A stretch of DNA of 40,380 nucleotides from Deltaproteobacteria bacterium (GTDB lineage Bacteria > Desulfobacterota > JACPFL01), in contig JACPFL010000262.1 of NCBI GenBank assembly GCA_016183025.1, forward strand, positions 1-40,380, read 5' to 3'. Shown piece after piece: positions 1,217 to 29,845 of this stretch. Position numbers and translations under genes: made by a program. Every line of letters begins with the position of its first letter. Positions within the stretch are counted from its first letter, which is position 1. The notes beneath the pieces are model-generated. The model had not been told where the DNA came from. It searched no databases and saw nothing but the letters and a program-made list of their open reading frames with translations.

Positions 1217-2422
1217 ATGCCGAAGACCTATCAGGACTTCATCGCCGAGGCGAAGCAGGCCGTGAAGGAGGTCACCGCGGAGGAGGTCCGCGCGATGACC
1301 GCCAACGGTGGCCAGGTCGTCCTCCTCGACGTGCGGGAGAAGGACGAGTACCGGGAAGGGCACCTGGAGGGGGCTGTCCACCTGAGCCGCGGGTTCCTGG
1401 AGTTTCGCGCGCCAGACCTCCTGCCTGATCGCCAGGCCAAGATCGTCGTCTACTGAGCATCCGGACTGCGGTCCGTGCTGGCCGCCCGGGCGCTTCAGGA
1501 GATGGGGTACACCGAGGTCGCCTCGATGACCGGCGGCTTCAACCGCTGGCGCGACGCCGGCTTCCCGGTGGCGAAGGAGCGCCAGCTTACCCCGGACCAG
1601 CTCTCCCGCTACAGCCGCCACTTCATGCTGACCCAGGTGGGGGAGGCCGGGCAGCGGAAGCTGCTGGATGCCAATATGCTCCTGATCGGGGCGGGGGGGC
1701 TGGGGTCCCCCGCGGGCTACTACCTCGCCGCCGCGGGAGTGGGGACGTTGGGGGTCATCGACGGCGACGTGGTGGATCTCTCGAACCTCCAGCGCCAGAT
1801 CCTGCACTCCACGGAGGCGGTGGGGAGGTCCAAGGTGGAGTCGGCCCGGGAGACCCTCACCCGGCTGAACCCGGACGTCCAGGTGATCGGCTACCAGGAG
1901 CGGATCACCCGCGCCAACATCATGGCCCTGGTGAAGGACTTTGACGTCGTCGTGGACGGCTCCGACAACTTCCCCACGCGCTACCTGGTGAACGACGCCT
2001 GCTTCCTGGCCGGCAAGCCCATCGTGCACGGGAGCATCTTCCAGTTCGAGGGGCAGGCCACCGTCTTCGTCCCGGGCCAGGGGCCCTGCTACCGCTGCAT
2101 CTTCCCCTCGCCGCCGGGGCCCGGCCTCGTGCCCAACTGAAACGAGGCGGGGGTCCTGGGCGTGCTCCCAGGCGTGATCGGCATCATCCAGGCGACCGAG
2201 GCGATCAAGCTGGTGCTGGGCAAGGGCGACCTGCTGGTGGGCCGGCTCCTGATCTACGATGCGTTCCGGATGAAGTTCCGCGAGCTGAAGATCCGGCGGG
2301 ACCGGGAGTGCCCGCTCTGCGGGGACCGGCCGACCATCACGGACCTGATCGACTATGAGGCGTTCTGCGGGATGGGCGAGGGGGCGGGGCAGGTGGACGT
2401 GCCGCAGCGGGCCGGCGGCTGA
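1217..2422 (+). CDS. Rhodanese-MoeB/ThiF fusion with two predicted selenocysteines (U80, U308)
   Basis: One frame runs from ATG 1217 to TGA 2420-2422 (401 residues) if TGA at 1454-1456 and 2138-2140 are read through. Residues 1-110 are a rhodanese domain; the first TGA replaces the persulfide-forming cysteine in IVVY-U-ASGLRS. Residues 120-385 are an E1-like adenylyltransferase of the MoeB/ThiF/HesA family, with nucleotide loop GAGGLGSP near residue 158. The second TGA replaces the catalytic cysteine in VPN-U-NEAGVLG (ThiF Cys184, MOCS3 Cys239 position). The zinc cysteines C291/C294 and C365/C368 stay TGC. Such enzymes adenylate a ubiquitin-like carrier (MoaD, ThiS) and charge it with sulfur. 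Rhodanese is N-terminal here, the reverse of MoeZ and MOCS3. TGA is the stop elsewhere, and SECIS-like hairpins follow both codons. Without Sec insertion it would be three useless fragments. Confidence 0.85.
1468..1485 (+). promoter_or_regulatory. SECIS-like hairpin after the first TGA (Sec80)
   Basis: Six base pairs (1468-1473 with 1480-1485, one U-G) close a six-base loop CGUGCU at 1474-1479. The loop starts 18 bases after the TGA and has G as its second base, as expected for a bacterial SECIS bound by SelB. A competing hairpin (CGGAC/GTCCG, 1462-1475) is possible, with its loop only 11 bases from the TGA. Confidence 0.6.
2155..2172 (+). promoter_or_regulatory. SECIS-like hairpin after the second TGA (Sec308)
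   Basis: A perfect six-pair stem, CCTGGG (2155-2160) with CCCAGG (2167-2172), closes the loop CGUGCU at 2161-2166. The loop starts 21 bases after the TGA and its second base is G. The loop sequence is identical to that after the first TGA. Distance and loop fit the bacterial SECIS consensus well. Confidence 0.75.
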
Positions 2423-2451
2423 GGTGCCTGGCGCAGAAAGGAGCGGGGGGG

Positions 2452-3261
2452 ATGGTGGACGTCGGGAAGGTGCAGTACCGGAAGCTGGAGCGGGGGATCG
2501 AGGCGCGCTGTCCGCGGCTCCCGGCGGAGAGGGTCCTCGCCATCCGGATGGCGGTGGCCTGCACGGGCGTGTCGGAGCTGGAGCAGTGCACCGCCATCCG
2601 GTTCCCCGAGGAGCAGAAGGACAAGTTCGAGGCGGCGCTGAAGCACCCCCTGCCTGACCCGCCGCTCCCGGTCCAGATCCCCCTCTACTACGATTTCAAC
2701 TCCCCCTACGGCTATGCGGCCACGGTGATCGCCCCGCGCCTGGAGCAGGCCTACCAGGTCCGCTTCGACTGGCGAGGGTTCGAGCTGTTCCCGGAGTGGC
2801 GGAGTTTCCCCTCCAGGAGCCCCGAGGAGGTGCGCAAGGGGTTCGAGGCGGCCAAGGCCGTGGGAGAGCCCCTGGGGCTCCCGTTCGCCACAGAGCGCCC
2901 GCCGTTCATGCGGACCCGGCTCCTCCACCTGGCCTGCGAGTACGCGAGGCTCGCGGGGCGGTTCCACCTCTTCAATCAGGCCCTCTTTCGTGCCCTCTGG
3001 GGACAGCGCCGGGATCTCACCGACTTCAACAACGTCAAGCAGGTGGCCTATGAGGTGGGGCTGGACGCGTTGGCGCTCGAGGACGCGGTCCTGAGCGGGC
3101 GACTGGACGGGCTCCTGAGCGAGCACCGGCGCACTGCCGAGAAGAGCGGCGTCTTCGGCGTGCCCACGTTCATCGTCGGCGGCCAGCGGGTCTGGGGGCG
3201 TGAGCCCTACGACGATCTCGTGGAGGCCTTCAGCCAGGCGGGGATCCCCAAACGCGCCTGA
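2452..3261 (+). CDS. DsbA-superfamily protein, HCCA-isomerase/FrnE-like
   Basis: This 269-residue protein has an unassigned N-terminal part of about 75 residues, then a thioredoxin-fold DsbA-like domain. The domain opens with YYDFNSPYGY at residues 79-88 and ends with a cis-proline region, VFGVPTFIVGG. The position of a DsbA CxxC is taken by SPYG, so it is unlikely to be a disulfide oxidase. This matches the 2-hydroxychromene-2-carboxylate isomerase / GST-kappa branch, which uses glutathione or a related thiol. The start follows AAAGGAG at good spacing. It begins 29 bases after the selenoprotein and is probably co-transcribed. The N-terminal part has cysteines C20, C37 and C46. The substrate is unknown; a role in thiol or selenium chemistry is inference from the neighbour only. 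Confidence 0.65.
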   Translation: MVDVGKVQYRKLERGIEARCPRLPAERVLAIRMAVACTGVSELEQCTAIRFPEEQKDKFEAALKHPLPDPPLPVQIPLYYDFNSPYGYAATVIAPRLEQAYQVRFDWRGFELFPEWRSFPSRSPEEVRKGFEAAKAVGEPLGLPFATERPPFMRTRLLHLACEYARLAGRFHLFNQALFRALWGQRRDLTDFNNVKQVAYEVGLDALALEDAVLSGRLDGLLSEHRRTAEKSGVFGVPTFIVGGQRVWGREPYDDLVEAFSQAGIPKRA

Positions 3262-3265
3262 TAAG

Positions 3266-4414
<1,149 letters not shown>

Positions 4415-4489
4415 TGGTGGGGGGATCGCTGTGCTATGATGCCCCGCCAGGGCAGGGGGGCGCGACGGAACCCCGGCAGGAGGGGTGAG

Positions 4490-6043
4490 ATGGGCACGGA
4501 CATCCAGCTTCCCGAGCGGTACAACATGGCCACCACCTTCATCGACGAGCCGGCCCGCCGGAGGCCGGACCGGGTGGCGATCTACTACGGGGACCAGGCG
4601 CTCACCTACCGCGAGCTGCAGGAACTGGTGAACCGGACGGGGAACGCCCTGCGCGGCCTGGGCGTCGAGGTCGAGGACCGCGTGCTCCTGATCGTGCTCG
4701 ACTGCCCGGAGTTCGTCGCCGCCTTCTTCGGAGCGATCAAGATCGGGGCCATCCCGGTGCCCATCAACACCCTGATGCGGGCCTCGGACTTCGAGTACTT
4801 CCTCCGGGACAGCCGGGCGAAGGTCCTGGTGGTCTCGGAGCCGCTCCTGCCTGAGCTCGAGAAGGTGGACCGGCGCGCCCTGCGGGACCTCAAGCACGTC
4901 GTGGTGATCGGGACCCCCAGGCCGGGGGACCGGTGCTTCGCCGACCTCGTGAAGGAGGCCTCCGCGGAGCTCGAGGCGGCTGACACGAGCCGGGACGAGA
5001 TGGCCTTCTGGCTCTACAGCTCGGGGAGCACGGGGCTGCCCAAGGGGGTGGTCCACCTGCAGCACGACGCCATCTGGTGCGCCGAGCTGTACTTCAAGAA
5101 CATCCTGGGGATCAACGAGCGGGACATCGTCTTCTCGGTCGCCAAGCTCTTCTTCGCCTACGGCCTGGGCAACTGCCTGTACGCCACGCTGCAGGAGGGC
5201 GCCGCCTGCGTGCTCCTCCCCGACCGCCCCACCCCGGAGAAGGTCTTCGAGGTCATCGACCGCTACCAGCCGACGGTCTTCTACGCCGTGCCGACGATGT
5301 ACGCCGCGCTCCTGCAGGTGAAGGACGCCGAGCGCGGGTACCGTACCGGGTCCCTCCGCCTGTGCGTCTCCGCCGGGGAGGCCCTGCCGCCCCGCCTGTA
5401 CCAGGAGTGGCGCGATCGGTTCGGCACGGAGATCCTGGACGGGATCGGCTCCACGGAGATCTGCCACATCTTCATCTCGAACCGCCCGGGGCGGGTGCGC
5501 CCAGGGGCCTCGGGGCTCCTGGTGGAGGGTTACGAAGCGCGGATCGTGGAGGAGGACGGGCAGCCGGTGCCGCGCGGGGAGGTGGGGAACCTCTGGATCA
5601 AGGGGGAGTCCATCGCCCCCTTCTACTGGAACAAGCACCAGAAGACGAAGCAGACGATGCTGGGGGAGTGGATCGTCACCGGGGACAAGTACTACCAGGA
5701 CGAGGATGGCTCCTACTGGTACGCGGGGCGGGCCGACGACATGCTGAAGGTGGGAGGGATCTGGGTCTCTCCCGTCGAGGTGGAGAACACGCTGGTGGGG
5801 CACCCGGCGGTCCTGGAGTGCGCGGTGGTGGGCGCGGAGGATGAGGAGCAGCTCGTCAAGCCCAAGGCCTTCGTCGTGCTGAGGCAGGGGCAGACCGCGT
5901 CCCCGGCGCTCGCCGAGGAGCTGCAGGCGTTCGTGAAGGACAAGATCGCCCCGTACAAGTACCCCCGCTGGATCGAGTTCGTGCCGGAGCTCCCCAAGAC
6001 CGCCACGGGGAAGATCCAGCGCTTCCGCCTGCGCCAGGGCTGA
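4490..6043 (+). CDS. Benzoate-CoA ligase family acyl-CoA synthetase
   Basis: A 517-residue ANL-superfamily adenylating enzyme that would activate an aromatic or short carboxylic acid to its CoA thioester with ATP. The P-loop-like motif YSSGSTGLPKGV, the substrate stretch VFSVAKLFFAYGLGN (characteristic of benzoate/4-hydroxybenzoate-CoA ligases), the hinge region GRADDMLKVGG and the C-terminal catalytic lysine in PKTATGKIQRF are all visible. The start at 4490 follows AGGAGGGGTGAG. An ORF extension upstream lacks a ribosome site. A TATGAT box at 4435-4440 may be the -10 of its own promoter. It leads a run with a hydrolase, a rhodanese, a thioesterase and an SDR, which suits aromatic acid catabolism. 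Exact substrate is not readable from sequence. Confidence 0.85.
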   Translation: MGTDIQLPERYNMATTFIDEPARRRPDRVAIYYGDQALTYRELQELVNRTGNALRGLGVEVEDRVLLIVLDCPEFVAAFFGAIKIGAIPVPINTLMRASDFEYFLRDSRAKVLVVSEPLLPELEKVDRRALRDLKHVVVIGTPRPGDRCFADLVKEASAELEAADTSRDEMAFWLYSSGSTGLPKGVVHLQHDAIWCAELYFKNILGINERDIVFSVAKLFFAYGLGNCLYATLQEGAACVLLPDRPTPEKVFEVIDRYQPTVFYAVPTMYAALLQVKDAERGYRTGSLRLCVSAGEALPPRLYQEWRDRFGTEILDGIGSTEICHIFISNRPGRVRPGASGLLVEGYEARIVEEDGQPVPRGEVGNLWIKGESIAPFYWNKHQKTKQTMLGEWIVTGDKYYQDEDGSYWYAGRADDMLKVGGIWVSPVEVENTLVGHPAVLECAVVGAEDEEQLVKPKAFVVLRQGQTASPALAEELQAFVKDKIAPYKYPRWIEFVPELPKTATGKIQRFRLRQG

Positions 6044-6049
6044 GCGCGC

Positions 6050-6775
6050 ATGATCTTCAGGCCGCTGCTCAGCGATGACCGGGGGTGTGCGTCCTACCTG
6101 CTGGGCTCCCGGTCAGCCGGGCTCTGCGCGGTGGTGGACCCCCACCTGGCGGTCCGGGAGTACGTCCTGGAGGCTGCGGACCGGGGGCTGAAGATCACCC
6201 ATGTGATCGAGACGCACCTGCACGCGGACCATCGTTCCACCGCCGACGGGCTGGCGGAGCGCTGCGGGGCCCGGCTGGGGCGTCACGAGGGGAGTGAGGT
6301 CCGGCGGCCGTTCACCCCGCTCCGGGACGGGGAGCTGCTGGAGCTGGGCGAGGTCTGCGTCCGGGTCTGGCATACCCCCGGGCACACGCCGGACAGCCTC
6401 TGCCTGCTCATCGAGGACCGCGACCGCGCTGAGGCCCCCTGGTTCCTGCTCTCCGGGGACACCCTGCTGGTGGGAGACGTGGGGCGGCCCGACCTCGGCG
6501 GGGAAGGGGCGGCCTCGTTGCTCTACGACTCCCTGCAGCGGCTGCTGGGGCTGGACGATGTGGTGGAGGTCTATCCCGCGCACTACGGCGGGTCGGCCTG
6601 TGGCGGTGGGGCCCTGAGCGGCAAGTTCAGCTCCACCATCGGGTTCGAGCGGCGGTACAACCCGGCGCTCCGGTGTCCCTCCCGGGAGGCGTTCGTCCGG
6701 TACGTCACGGCGGGGCTGCGGCCCATGCCGGAGGCCTTCGAGGCCCTGCGGCGCGAGAACCTGGGGGAGACATAG
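6050..6775 (+). CDS. ETHE1-like metallo-beta-lactamase hydrolase (possible persulfide dioxygenase)
   Basis: This 241-residue protein has the metallo-beta-lactamase signature THLHADH, then the ligands WHTPGHT and SGDTLLVGDVGRPD, and a late histidine in YPAHYGGSACGGG. The last segment is typical of the ETHE1/glyoxalase II-like group, where mononuclear iron oxidises thiol persulfides to sulfite. It starts 6 bases after the CoA ligase and is followed after 1 base by a tandem rhodanese, the classic partner of persulfide dioxygenases. I infer a role in sulfide or persulfide oxidation; hydrolysis of a thioester is the alternative. Confidence 0.75.
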   Translation: MIFRPLLSDDRGCASYLLGSRSAGLCAVVDPHLAVREYVLEAADRGLKITHVIETHLHADHRSTADGLAERCGARLGRHEGSEVRRPFTPLRDGELLELGEVCVRVWHTPGHTPDSLCLLIEDRDRAEAPWFLLSGDTLLVGDVGRPDLGGEGAASLLYDSLQRLLGLDDVVEVYPAHYGGSACGGGALSGKFSSTIGFERRYNPALRCPSREAFVRYVTAGLRPMPEAFEALRRENLGET

Positions 6776-6776
6776 C

Positions 6777-7421
6777 ATGGGGGCCGGCCTGCCTCCGCTG
6801 ACGGTGGCCCGGCGCCTGGAGGGGTGGAGCCTGCTCCTGGACCTGCGCTCCGTCCCGGAGTTCGAGGCCGGGCATCCCGCCGGGGCCGTCCATGTCCAGT
6901 TCAGCCGCAAGAGCCTCCCCGAGCGGGTCGCCACGGCACTCCCGGAGCCCGCGCCCCCCCTCATCCTGTGCGCGGCGGACGGCATCGTGGCCGAGGCGGC
7001 GGCCGGCCTGCTCCAGGAGGCCGCCTGCTTTCAGGTCGATGGCTGGCTGGACGGCGGCCTGCCCGCCTGGGCTGGCGCGGGCCTTCCCACCGCCACCCTG
7101 CCGCGGCTGACCCTGGAGGGGCTGCAGCGCCGCCTCGCACCAGGGGGCCTGGTGCTCGTGGATGTGCGGGAGCCCTTTGAATGGCGCTGGGGGTACATCC
7201 CGGGCGCGCGGCTCATCCCCCTCGACCGCCTGGCCCTGAAGCCGGAGGCAGTGGCTGGTGCCCCGGAGCTGGCCTTCATCTGCGAGGACGGGGTCCGCAG
7301 CAGCACGGCGGCCAGCCTGTTGATGCGGAGGGGCCACCGGGGGGTGGCCAACGTGACCGAGGGGATGAACGCCTGGTATCGGATGAAGCTCCCGACGATG
7401 AAGTGGGAGGGGCGCGAGTAG
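6777..7421 (+). CDS. Tandem rhodanese-domain sulfurtransferase
   Basis: A 214-residue protein with two rhodanese domains. The C-terminal domain (about residues 103-205) has a complete active-site loop, CEDGVRSS, so its cysteine can carry a persulfide. The N-terminal domain has LCAADGIVA at the loop position: the cysteine is kept but the usual loop arginine is absent, so activity there is doubtful. No secretion signal is seen. The stop of the preceding hydrolase and this start are one base apart, giving a persulfide dioxygenase-sulfurtransferase pair. Unlike the selenoprotein at 1217-2422, both loop cysteines are ordinary TGC codons. Confidence 0.85.
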   Translation: MGAGLPPLTVARRLEGWSLLLDLRSVPEFEAGHPAGAVHVQFSRKSLPERVATALPEPAPPLILCAADGIVAEAAAGLLQEAACFQVDGWLDGGLPAWAGAGLPTATLPRLTLEGLQRRLAPGGLVLVDVREPFEWRWGYIPGARLIPLDRLALKPEAVAGAPELAFICEDGVRSSTAASLLMRRGHRGVANVTEGMNAWYRMKLPTMKWEGRE

Positions 7422-28728: not shown

Positions 28729-29133
28729 ATGGGCCGGAACGCTCGGCTGGCCGGGGTCATCGGCGCGGTGCTCCTGGCCAGCGCCGGCTGTGCGGCCAGC
28801 GGCCCAGAGGCGGCGGCCCGGCGGTTCCTGGATGCCTATTACATCCACGCGGACCTGGGGGAGGCCGTGATGCTGGCAGACGGCCTGGCCCTGGAGAAGA
28901 TCAAGGAGCAGCAGGCGTTGACCAGGGGGGTCCCGGCAGACGCCCTGACCCGGAAGCGCCAGGTCTTCTACGAGCTGCGGCAGCGACGGGACCGGGGGGC
29001 AGAGCGGGTGCTCTTCATGTACGATCTGACGATTCAGGGGGGCGGGGCCAGTTTTCGGAAGCGCACCCTGATCACCGTGGCCCGGATGGGCGAGCGATGG
29101 CGGGTGACCAACTTCAGTGATACCGACGCCTGA
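28729..29133 (+). CDS. Small predicted lipoprotein
   Basis: 134 residues. The start is ATG 28729, one base after the sirtuin remnant's stop. A signal sequence (GVIGAVLLASAGC) ends in Cys21, a lipobox. The mature part resembles short periplasmic lipoproteins with an NTF2-like or DUF4878-like fold (AARRFLDAYY, then a strand-rich end VTNFSDTDA). Function unknown. It overlaps the possible early start of the next gene. Confidence 0.65.
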   Translation: MGRNARLAGVIGAVLLASAGCAASGPEAAARRFLDAYYIHADLGEAVMLADGLALEKIKEQQALTRGVPADALTRKRQVFYELRQRRDRGAERVLFMYDLTIQGGGASFRKRTLITVARMGERWRVTNFSDTDA

Positions 29134-29143
29134 GGGACTGACG

Positions 29144-29845
29144 GTGCGGGTGACGGTCCACCTGTTTGCATCGCTCCGGGAGCTGGCCGGCGCCCGGGAG
29201 CTGGGGCTGGAGCTTCCGGAGGGGGCGACCGTGGCTACAGCCTGGGAGCGGCTGGCGGCCGAGCACCCCAGGCTGCGGGAGCTGAGGGGCACCATCCTTC
29301 CCTCGGTGAACCTGGAGTTCGCCGAGCCGGGGCGGCCGCTCCGGGAGGGGGACGAGGTGGCCTTCCTCCCGCCCGTGAGTGGAGGGGCGGGGATGTTCGA
29401 GATCACCGAGAAGGAGCTGTACGCCGATCCGTTGATCGAGCGCATGCGGCGTGACACCCATGGGGCGGTGTGCGCCTTCGTGGGGGTCGTGCGCGAGACC
29501 TCGCCCCTGGGGATGAAGGTCACCTACCTCGAGTACGACGCCTACAAGGAGATGGCCGAACGGAAGATGCGGCAGATCGGCGACGAGATCCGGTCGCGCT
29601 GGAAGCTGGAGGAGGTGGCCATCGTCCACCGCGTGGGGCGACTGGCCATCGGGGAGACGAGCGTGGTCATCGTGGTGGCCTCCCCCCACCGCCGCGATGC
29701 CTTCGAGGCCTGCCACTACGCCATCGAGCGCCTGAAGCAGATCGTCCCCATCTGGAAGAAGGAGGTGGGGGAGCATGGCGAGGTGTGGCTCGAGGGGGAG
29801 GGGCAGGGTCGCGAGGAGCTGAGATGGCCGAGACGGAGGAGATGA
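29144..29845 (+). CDS. MoaD-MoaE fusion, molybdopterin synthase
   Basis: A 233-residue fusion. Residues 1-81 are the ubiquitin-like MoaD part and end in the double glycine VSGG that is adenylated and thiocarboxylated; residues 84-233 are MoaE, with KEMAERKMRQI and the catalytic lysine region PIWKKEVGEHG. It converts cyclic pyranopterin monophosphate to molybdopterin. In a fused protein the MoaD glycine tail is internal, so cleavage after the double glycine is expected, as known for MoaX in mycobacteria. GTG 29144 is preferred to an upstream GTG at 29117 because GAGGG sits 8 bases before it. It overlaps the next gene by 22 bases. Its E1 activator may be the selenoprotein at 1217-2422. Confidence 0.9.
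   Translation: MRVTVHLFASLRELAGARELGLELPEGATVATAWERLAAEHPRLRELRGTILPSVNLEFAEPGRPLREGDEVAFLPPVSGGAGMFEITEKELYADPLIERMRRDTHGAVCAFVGVVRETSPLGMKVTYLEYDAYKEMAERKMRQIGDEIRSRWKLEEVAIVHRVGRLAIGETSVVIVVASPHRRDAFEACHYAIERLKQIVPIWKKEVGEHGEVWLEGEGQGREELRWPRRRR

Follow-up and report, generated by a model that had tools for sequence, protein, structure and literature searches.

One gene of the window (the whole stretch of DNA analysed here, 40,380 nucleotides) probably encodes a rhodanese-MoeB E1-like enzyme in which SelB would decode two UGA codons as selenocysteine (Sec), each by means of its own in-frame bacterial SECIS element. The original prediction had taken this gene for a double selenoprotein, and that reading gains support from the Sec machinery of the source genome, from the exchange of Cys and Sec at position 308 among homologues, and from a hairpin with the same loop after both TGA codons. 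It held in almost all the checks applied to it, and no outcome named beforehand as fatal was encountered. Judged from sequence, Sec at position 308 is close to certain and Sec at position 80, which rests on one MAG assembly, is likely. The gene and its parts are the following:

1217-2422, + strand: rhodanese-MoeB (E1-like) gene, 401 residues, with two internal TGA codons and a terminal TGA
1274-1555, + strand: Rhodanese domain, residues 20-113 (Pfam PF00581, E 1.4e-21)
1454-1456, + strand: TGA codon 80, at the rhodanese catalytic Cys position, likely read as Sec, motif YUASGLRS (from translation and homologue alignment)
1468-1485, + strand: first hairpin, SECIS-like, GCGGUC-CGUGCU-GGCCGC, loop at 1474-1479, 17 nt after the TGA
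1610-2314, + strand: ThiF/MoeB adenylation domain, residues 132-366 (Pfam PF00899, E 1.1e-83)
2087-2098, + strand: first zinc pair, Cys291 and Cys294, both TGC in the sequence
2138-2140, + strand: TGA codon 308, at the E1 crossover-loop Cys position, almost certainly read as Sec, motif VPNUNEAGVLG (from translation and homologue alignment)
2155-2172, + strand: second hairpin, almost certainly a SECIS and conserved across phyla, CCUGGG-CGUGCU-CCCAGG, loop at 2161-2166, 20 nt after the TGA
2309-2320, + strand: second zinc pair, Cys365 and Cys368, both TGC in the sequence

The frame had been described as open but for two TGA codons that fall on the catalytic positions of the rhodanese and E1 domains, and both the translation and an alignment with Uba4 agree with this description. 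Apart from the terminal codon, translation meets TGA just twice, at codons 80 and 308, and in a phmmer alignment with 6yub the two residues pair with the rhodanese Cys and the crossover-loop Cys of Uba4, residue 80 at position 395 of the 6yub chain and residue 308 at position 200; a constant offset of two would equate these positions with the published Cys397 and Cys202 of Uba4 (PMC12954526). The ThiF domain carries the nucleotide-binding motif GAGGLGS and two zinc CxxC pairs, and the four zinc cysteines (residues 291, 294, 365 and 368) were correctly foreseen to remain TGC. The placement of both TGAs had been called very unlikely to arise by chance; for two random codons among about 400 to fall on exactly both catalytic positions, we estimate a chance of about 1e-5.

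The coding signal does not break at either TGA. In the three segments that the TGAs delimit, GC3 is 0.90, 0.96 and 0.97 and dN is lower than dS in each, and both the codon-position GC profile and the similarity to homologues, measured as identity, run on across the two codons; the GC3 values and the dN and dS estimates indicate that the frame has been kept open through both. Decay of the gene into a pseudogene through two nonsense mutations, as two in-frame TGAs might at first sight suggest, is highly improbable, since both fall on catalytic Cys codons with no frameshift or further stop, dN stays below dS in every segment and TGA308 is kept across many phyla. One or both TGAs might instead act as partial stops that yield shorter products, for example from the GTG at 1475, with Sec insertion regulated by selenium supply. 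In bacterial selenoproteins release and Sec insertion do compete at UGA, and a GTG start lies shortly 3' of TGA80 (ORF 1475-2140). We nevertheless regard this alternative as quite improbable: that ORF would itself stop at TGA308, conservation extends over the full length of the protein, and each of the three segments is under purifying selection.

The source genome is a MAG of 3.68 Mb in 308 contigs, 90% complete and 3% contaminated. The original prediction had proposed a search of this genome for selA, selB, selD and tRNA-Sec and would have been weakened by their absence; all four were found, the tRNA-Sec with anticodon TCA. In the profile searches with TIGR00475 and TIGR00476, the top matches alone were taken as SelB and SelD, weaker ones lying below the cut-offs. 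This machinery, together with adjoining genes that also end in TGA, makes it next to inconceivable that the two in-frame TGAs reflect reassignment of the codon to an ordinary amino acid in the source organism; TGA is the ordinary stop of the adjoining genes and hence is not reassigned, as had been argued from the sequence. The selD gene has an in-frame TGA of its own, in the motif GAGUACK (locus L009, about 2256-2258, minus strand, contig C284). The hairpin after it has a GUC loop and not CGUGCU, so that SECIS loops may differ within the source genome. Downstream of the tRNA-Sec gene (locus L014) we noted a leader that resembles a cobalamin riboswitch, by eye only. The genome also encodes two Cys-only MoeB paralogues on another contig (L023 and L024, contig C237), the first of which is 68% identical over the ThiF part and is followed by YeeE/YedE-like and TusA-like genes.

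The case for Sec is strongest at position 308. A genome scan with a DNA pattern that has TGA at the E1 codon, and that fixed some hairpin bases while leaving the third codon positions and the 3' arm free, returned at least 115 loci; one of them, L150, is evidently a chance match. The E1 TGA is present in more than 100 rhodanese-MoeB homologues, which represent at least seven phyla; the loci listed belong to Poribacteria, Rokubacteria/Methylomirabilota, Tectomicrobia, Nitrospinota, Verrucomicrobia, SAR324 and Deltaproteobacteria. Of 95 genomes searched in the phylum to which one Methylomirabilota homologue belongs, 58 have a match, and in all 58 the best one contains an in-frame TGA; the same holds for 67 of 67 Poribacteria with a match (85 searched). 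In a survey of 395 genomes of the source organism's own phylum, full-length fusions were either Cys/Cys or, in two family groups, had TGA at the E1 site. Thus, Cys and Sec are exchanged among homologues at site 308, and of the exchange that had been expected at both positions, this half was borne out; at site 80 all homologues have Cys.

The hairpin that follows the E1 codon is itself conserved. Its loop starts at +20 in 121 of 126 TGA sequences, and at 20 to 21 nt in nearly all; most are CCUGGG-CGUGCU-CCCAGG or one base off, those of the AT-richer Poribacteria included, and a second type has the loop AGUUGUG or similar on a stem kept with CCCGGG. Mean hairpin energy after the codon is -9.3 kcal/mol at the 126 TGA loci versus -6.1 in 19 Cys homologues, which encode nearly identical residues and yet have hairpins that are weaker and scattered in position. 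A hairpin that is near-invariant where the codon is TGA, and weak and scattered where it is Cys, is strong evidence that the element 3' of site 308 is a real SECIS. The same CGUGCU hairpin accompanies the E1 TGA of Verrucomicrobia and SAR324 proteins (L057, L068, L105 and similar), in which the rhodanese domain is apparently C-terminal. When the 40 nt 3' of site 308 are folded in isolation, the structure of minimum energy differs from the SECIS hairpin. Single-sequence folding and synonymous energy shuffles do not separate signal from the GC-rich background, and against synonymous-codon shuffles the energies of the two window hairpins are not significant (P = 0.21 and 0.35).

Position 80 is a different matter, as the window gene is the sole one with TGA there and Cys stands in each homologue whose residue could be read (99 of 99 scored, with 35 of 35 and 2 of 2 in further sets that overlap with it). 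This uniformity, and the origin of the sequence in a single contig of an incomplete and slightly contaminated MAG, would fit a gene in which Sec308 alone is real, the true codon 80 being TGC, as it is in many relatives, and TGA80 having arisen by an error of sequencing or assembly or by a very recent mutation. An error would also have had to strike the one catalytic codon, and would not make a SECIS-like hairpin. Within 48 nt 3' of codon 80 lies GCGGUC-CGUGCU-GGCCGC, of 6 bp with its loop at +17, which ranks second in strength among 106 homologue sequences; six pairs in this register occur in the window gene alone and are absent in the 105 Cys homologues, four of which have the CGTGCT loop letters at this site but pair poorly. 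On both strands of the 40-kb window, only two CGTGCT loops have a stem of at least 5 bp, and they are the hairpins of sites 80 and 308. Across all DNA gathered, and with the CGUGCU loop having been picked out after inspection of the sequence, a stem of at least 6 bp was found in 93 of 102 CGTGCT contexts at E1 sites versus 1 of 879 elsewhere, that one being site 80, which argues against a sequencing error at TGA80. The joint synonymous-codon probability of loop and stem at site 80 is modest (P = 0.021). In the bacterial SECIS model of a 2026 review, G stands in the first two loop positions and the apical loop lies 16-37 nt from the UGA (PMC13188914); both window hairpins, with loops at 17 nt (site 80) and 20 nt (site 308), fit this model. 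Taken together, we consider an error or recent mutation at TGA80 unlikely and Sec at both positions the better reading, in which the second copy of the CGUGCU loop seems to have arisen within the window gene.

No second copy with both Sec codons was found among the 95 genomes of the Methylomirabilota homologue's phylum or among 5 genomes of the phylum of a homologue labelled Nitrospinota, nor, going by TGA count alone (one each), among 85 Poribacteria. Five relatives with two apparent TGAs have in reality the E1 TGA and a second one that lies at the C-terminus or past it, and homologues in plasmid records are all below 60% identity. A tree of these proteins comprises 80 with E1 Sec and rhodanese Cys, 16 with two Cys and, as the sole double, the window protein, which groups with Methylomirabilota and Rokubacteria inside the E1-Sec set with moderate support (88/74) and on a long branch (0.34). 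Since it is nested among E1-Sec proteins, the simplest history is that E1 Sec is ancestral to this branch and that the rhodanese Sec came later, on the window protein's own branch.

The claim of novelty stands for both Sec residues in one chain and falls for the rhodanese-first fusion, which is known as NF006444/PRK08762. The window protein scores 558.4 bits against that family (cut-off 449) over residues 5-385 and has the same rhodanese-first domain order over its full length, whereas the aligned homologues combine a rhodanese Cys with an E1 Cys or Sec and the window protein has Sec at both sites. MoeB is listed as a selenoprotein in the Sargasso Sea survey, with 11 sequences (PMC1088965), and in GOS (PMC2398784), and as one with apparently a single Sec in the 2026 review (PMC13188914); these are ThiF/MoeB family members whose Sec is probably at the same kind of site as residue 308, but the parts consulted describe one Sec and no rhodanese fusion. 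The review also lists rhodanese selenoproteins with a UxxG motif (forms 2 and 4), whose Sec followed by xxG resembles the UASG of the window protein but which are rhodanese-domain proteins and not E1 fusions. It further names a small number of selenoproteins with two Sec, among them TsoB and MbdU, so that two Sec residues per chain are already known, though in other domain combinations and, among the entries listed, not as a rhodanese and E1 pair (PMC13188914). Uba4/MOCS3 likewise unites E1 and rhodanese in one chain, and its two catalytic Cys match both window Sec residues, but it is eukaryotic, has its rhodanese domain at the C-terminus rather than the N-terminus, and has Cys twice. In the open-licence literature, we found no paper on a rhodanese Sec and an E1 Sec in one chain. 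What appears new is thus the occurrence of both in one chain, at residues that cooperate in sulfur transfer by Uba4, along with a wide set of E1-Sec rhodanese-MoeB fusions; MoeB Sec and rhodanese Sec were known separately.

By homology, the enzyme likely serves to thiocarboxylate a ubiquitin-like sulfur carrier at the expense of ATP. Uba4 adenylates its carrier, which is then bound as a thioester by the crossover Cys and obtains its sulfur from the persulfide of the rhodanese domain (PMC12954526). The ThiF domain of the window protein would correspondingly adenylate a ubiquitin-like carrier of the ThiS/MoaD type at its C-terminal glycine, the crossover-loop residue Sec308 would take the carrier as a selenoester, and Sec80 would hold sulfur as a selenopersulfide and hand it to the carrier to give the thiocarboxylate; the remaining Se-Se or Se-S link between the two sites would subsequently be reduced. 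Sec would speed these steps or ease reversal after oxidation. The thioester Cys of Uba4 is helpful and not essential (PMC12954526), so Sec308 need not be catalytic. A version in which the Sec pair passes sulfur or selenium from Sec80 to a carrier held by Sec308, with an inter-site diselenide closing the cycle, is a tentative proposal that we place on the doubtful side.

The relay to a ubiquitin-like carrier, which the original prediction had also proposed, is suggested by homology and by an operon in a relative. In that Syntrophaceae relative (L055, about 1250-6915 in gene orientation), the E1-Sec gene is flanked by genes for a ThiS-NIL protein and for a ThiS-like one with GGG at its C-terminal end, and the cluster continues with a JAB peptidase, a cysteine synthase-type PLP enzyme and Thi4, gene content that suggests carriers for the synthesis of Cys, Met or thiamin and not of molybdopterin alone. 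In the window no sulfur-carrier gene adjoins the gene, and its neighbours, which include a DsbA-like protein and an alanine racemase, do not indicate the carrier; seven ThiS-family matches were found in the source genome, one of them in the window. Other genes of the window mentioned here are:

341-1168, + strand: 275-residue protein 5' of the rhodanese-MoeB gene, with no Pfam or NCBIfam match
2452-3261, + strand: DsbA-family protein, directly 3' of the rhodanese-MoeB gene
6050-6775: metallo-beta-lactamase-fold protein, adjoining the 6777-7421 gene
6777-7421, + strand: protein made of two rhodanese-like halves, with a Cys retained in CEDGVRSS of the C-terminal half
29117-29845, + strand: MoaD-MoaE fusion (ThiS and MoaE domains), a candidate carrier and one of the seven ThiS-family matches

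As for the family, rhodanese-MoeB fusions of uncultivated phyla widely have Sec at the E1 crossover position, and its insertion signal is near-invariant even where codons could vary. With Sec at both cooperating residues of the E1-rhodanese relay, a single chain would allow tests of what each residue does and of a Se-Se or Se-S link joining the two. If the tentative version of the cycle holds, the Sec pair would be a selenium-based form of the Uba4 relay, possibly one that loads selenium itself onto a ubiquitin-like carrier.
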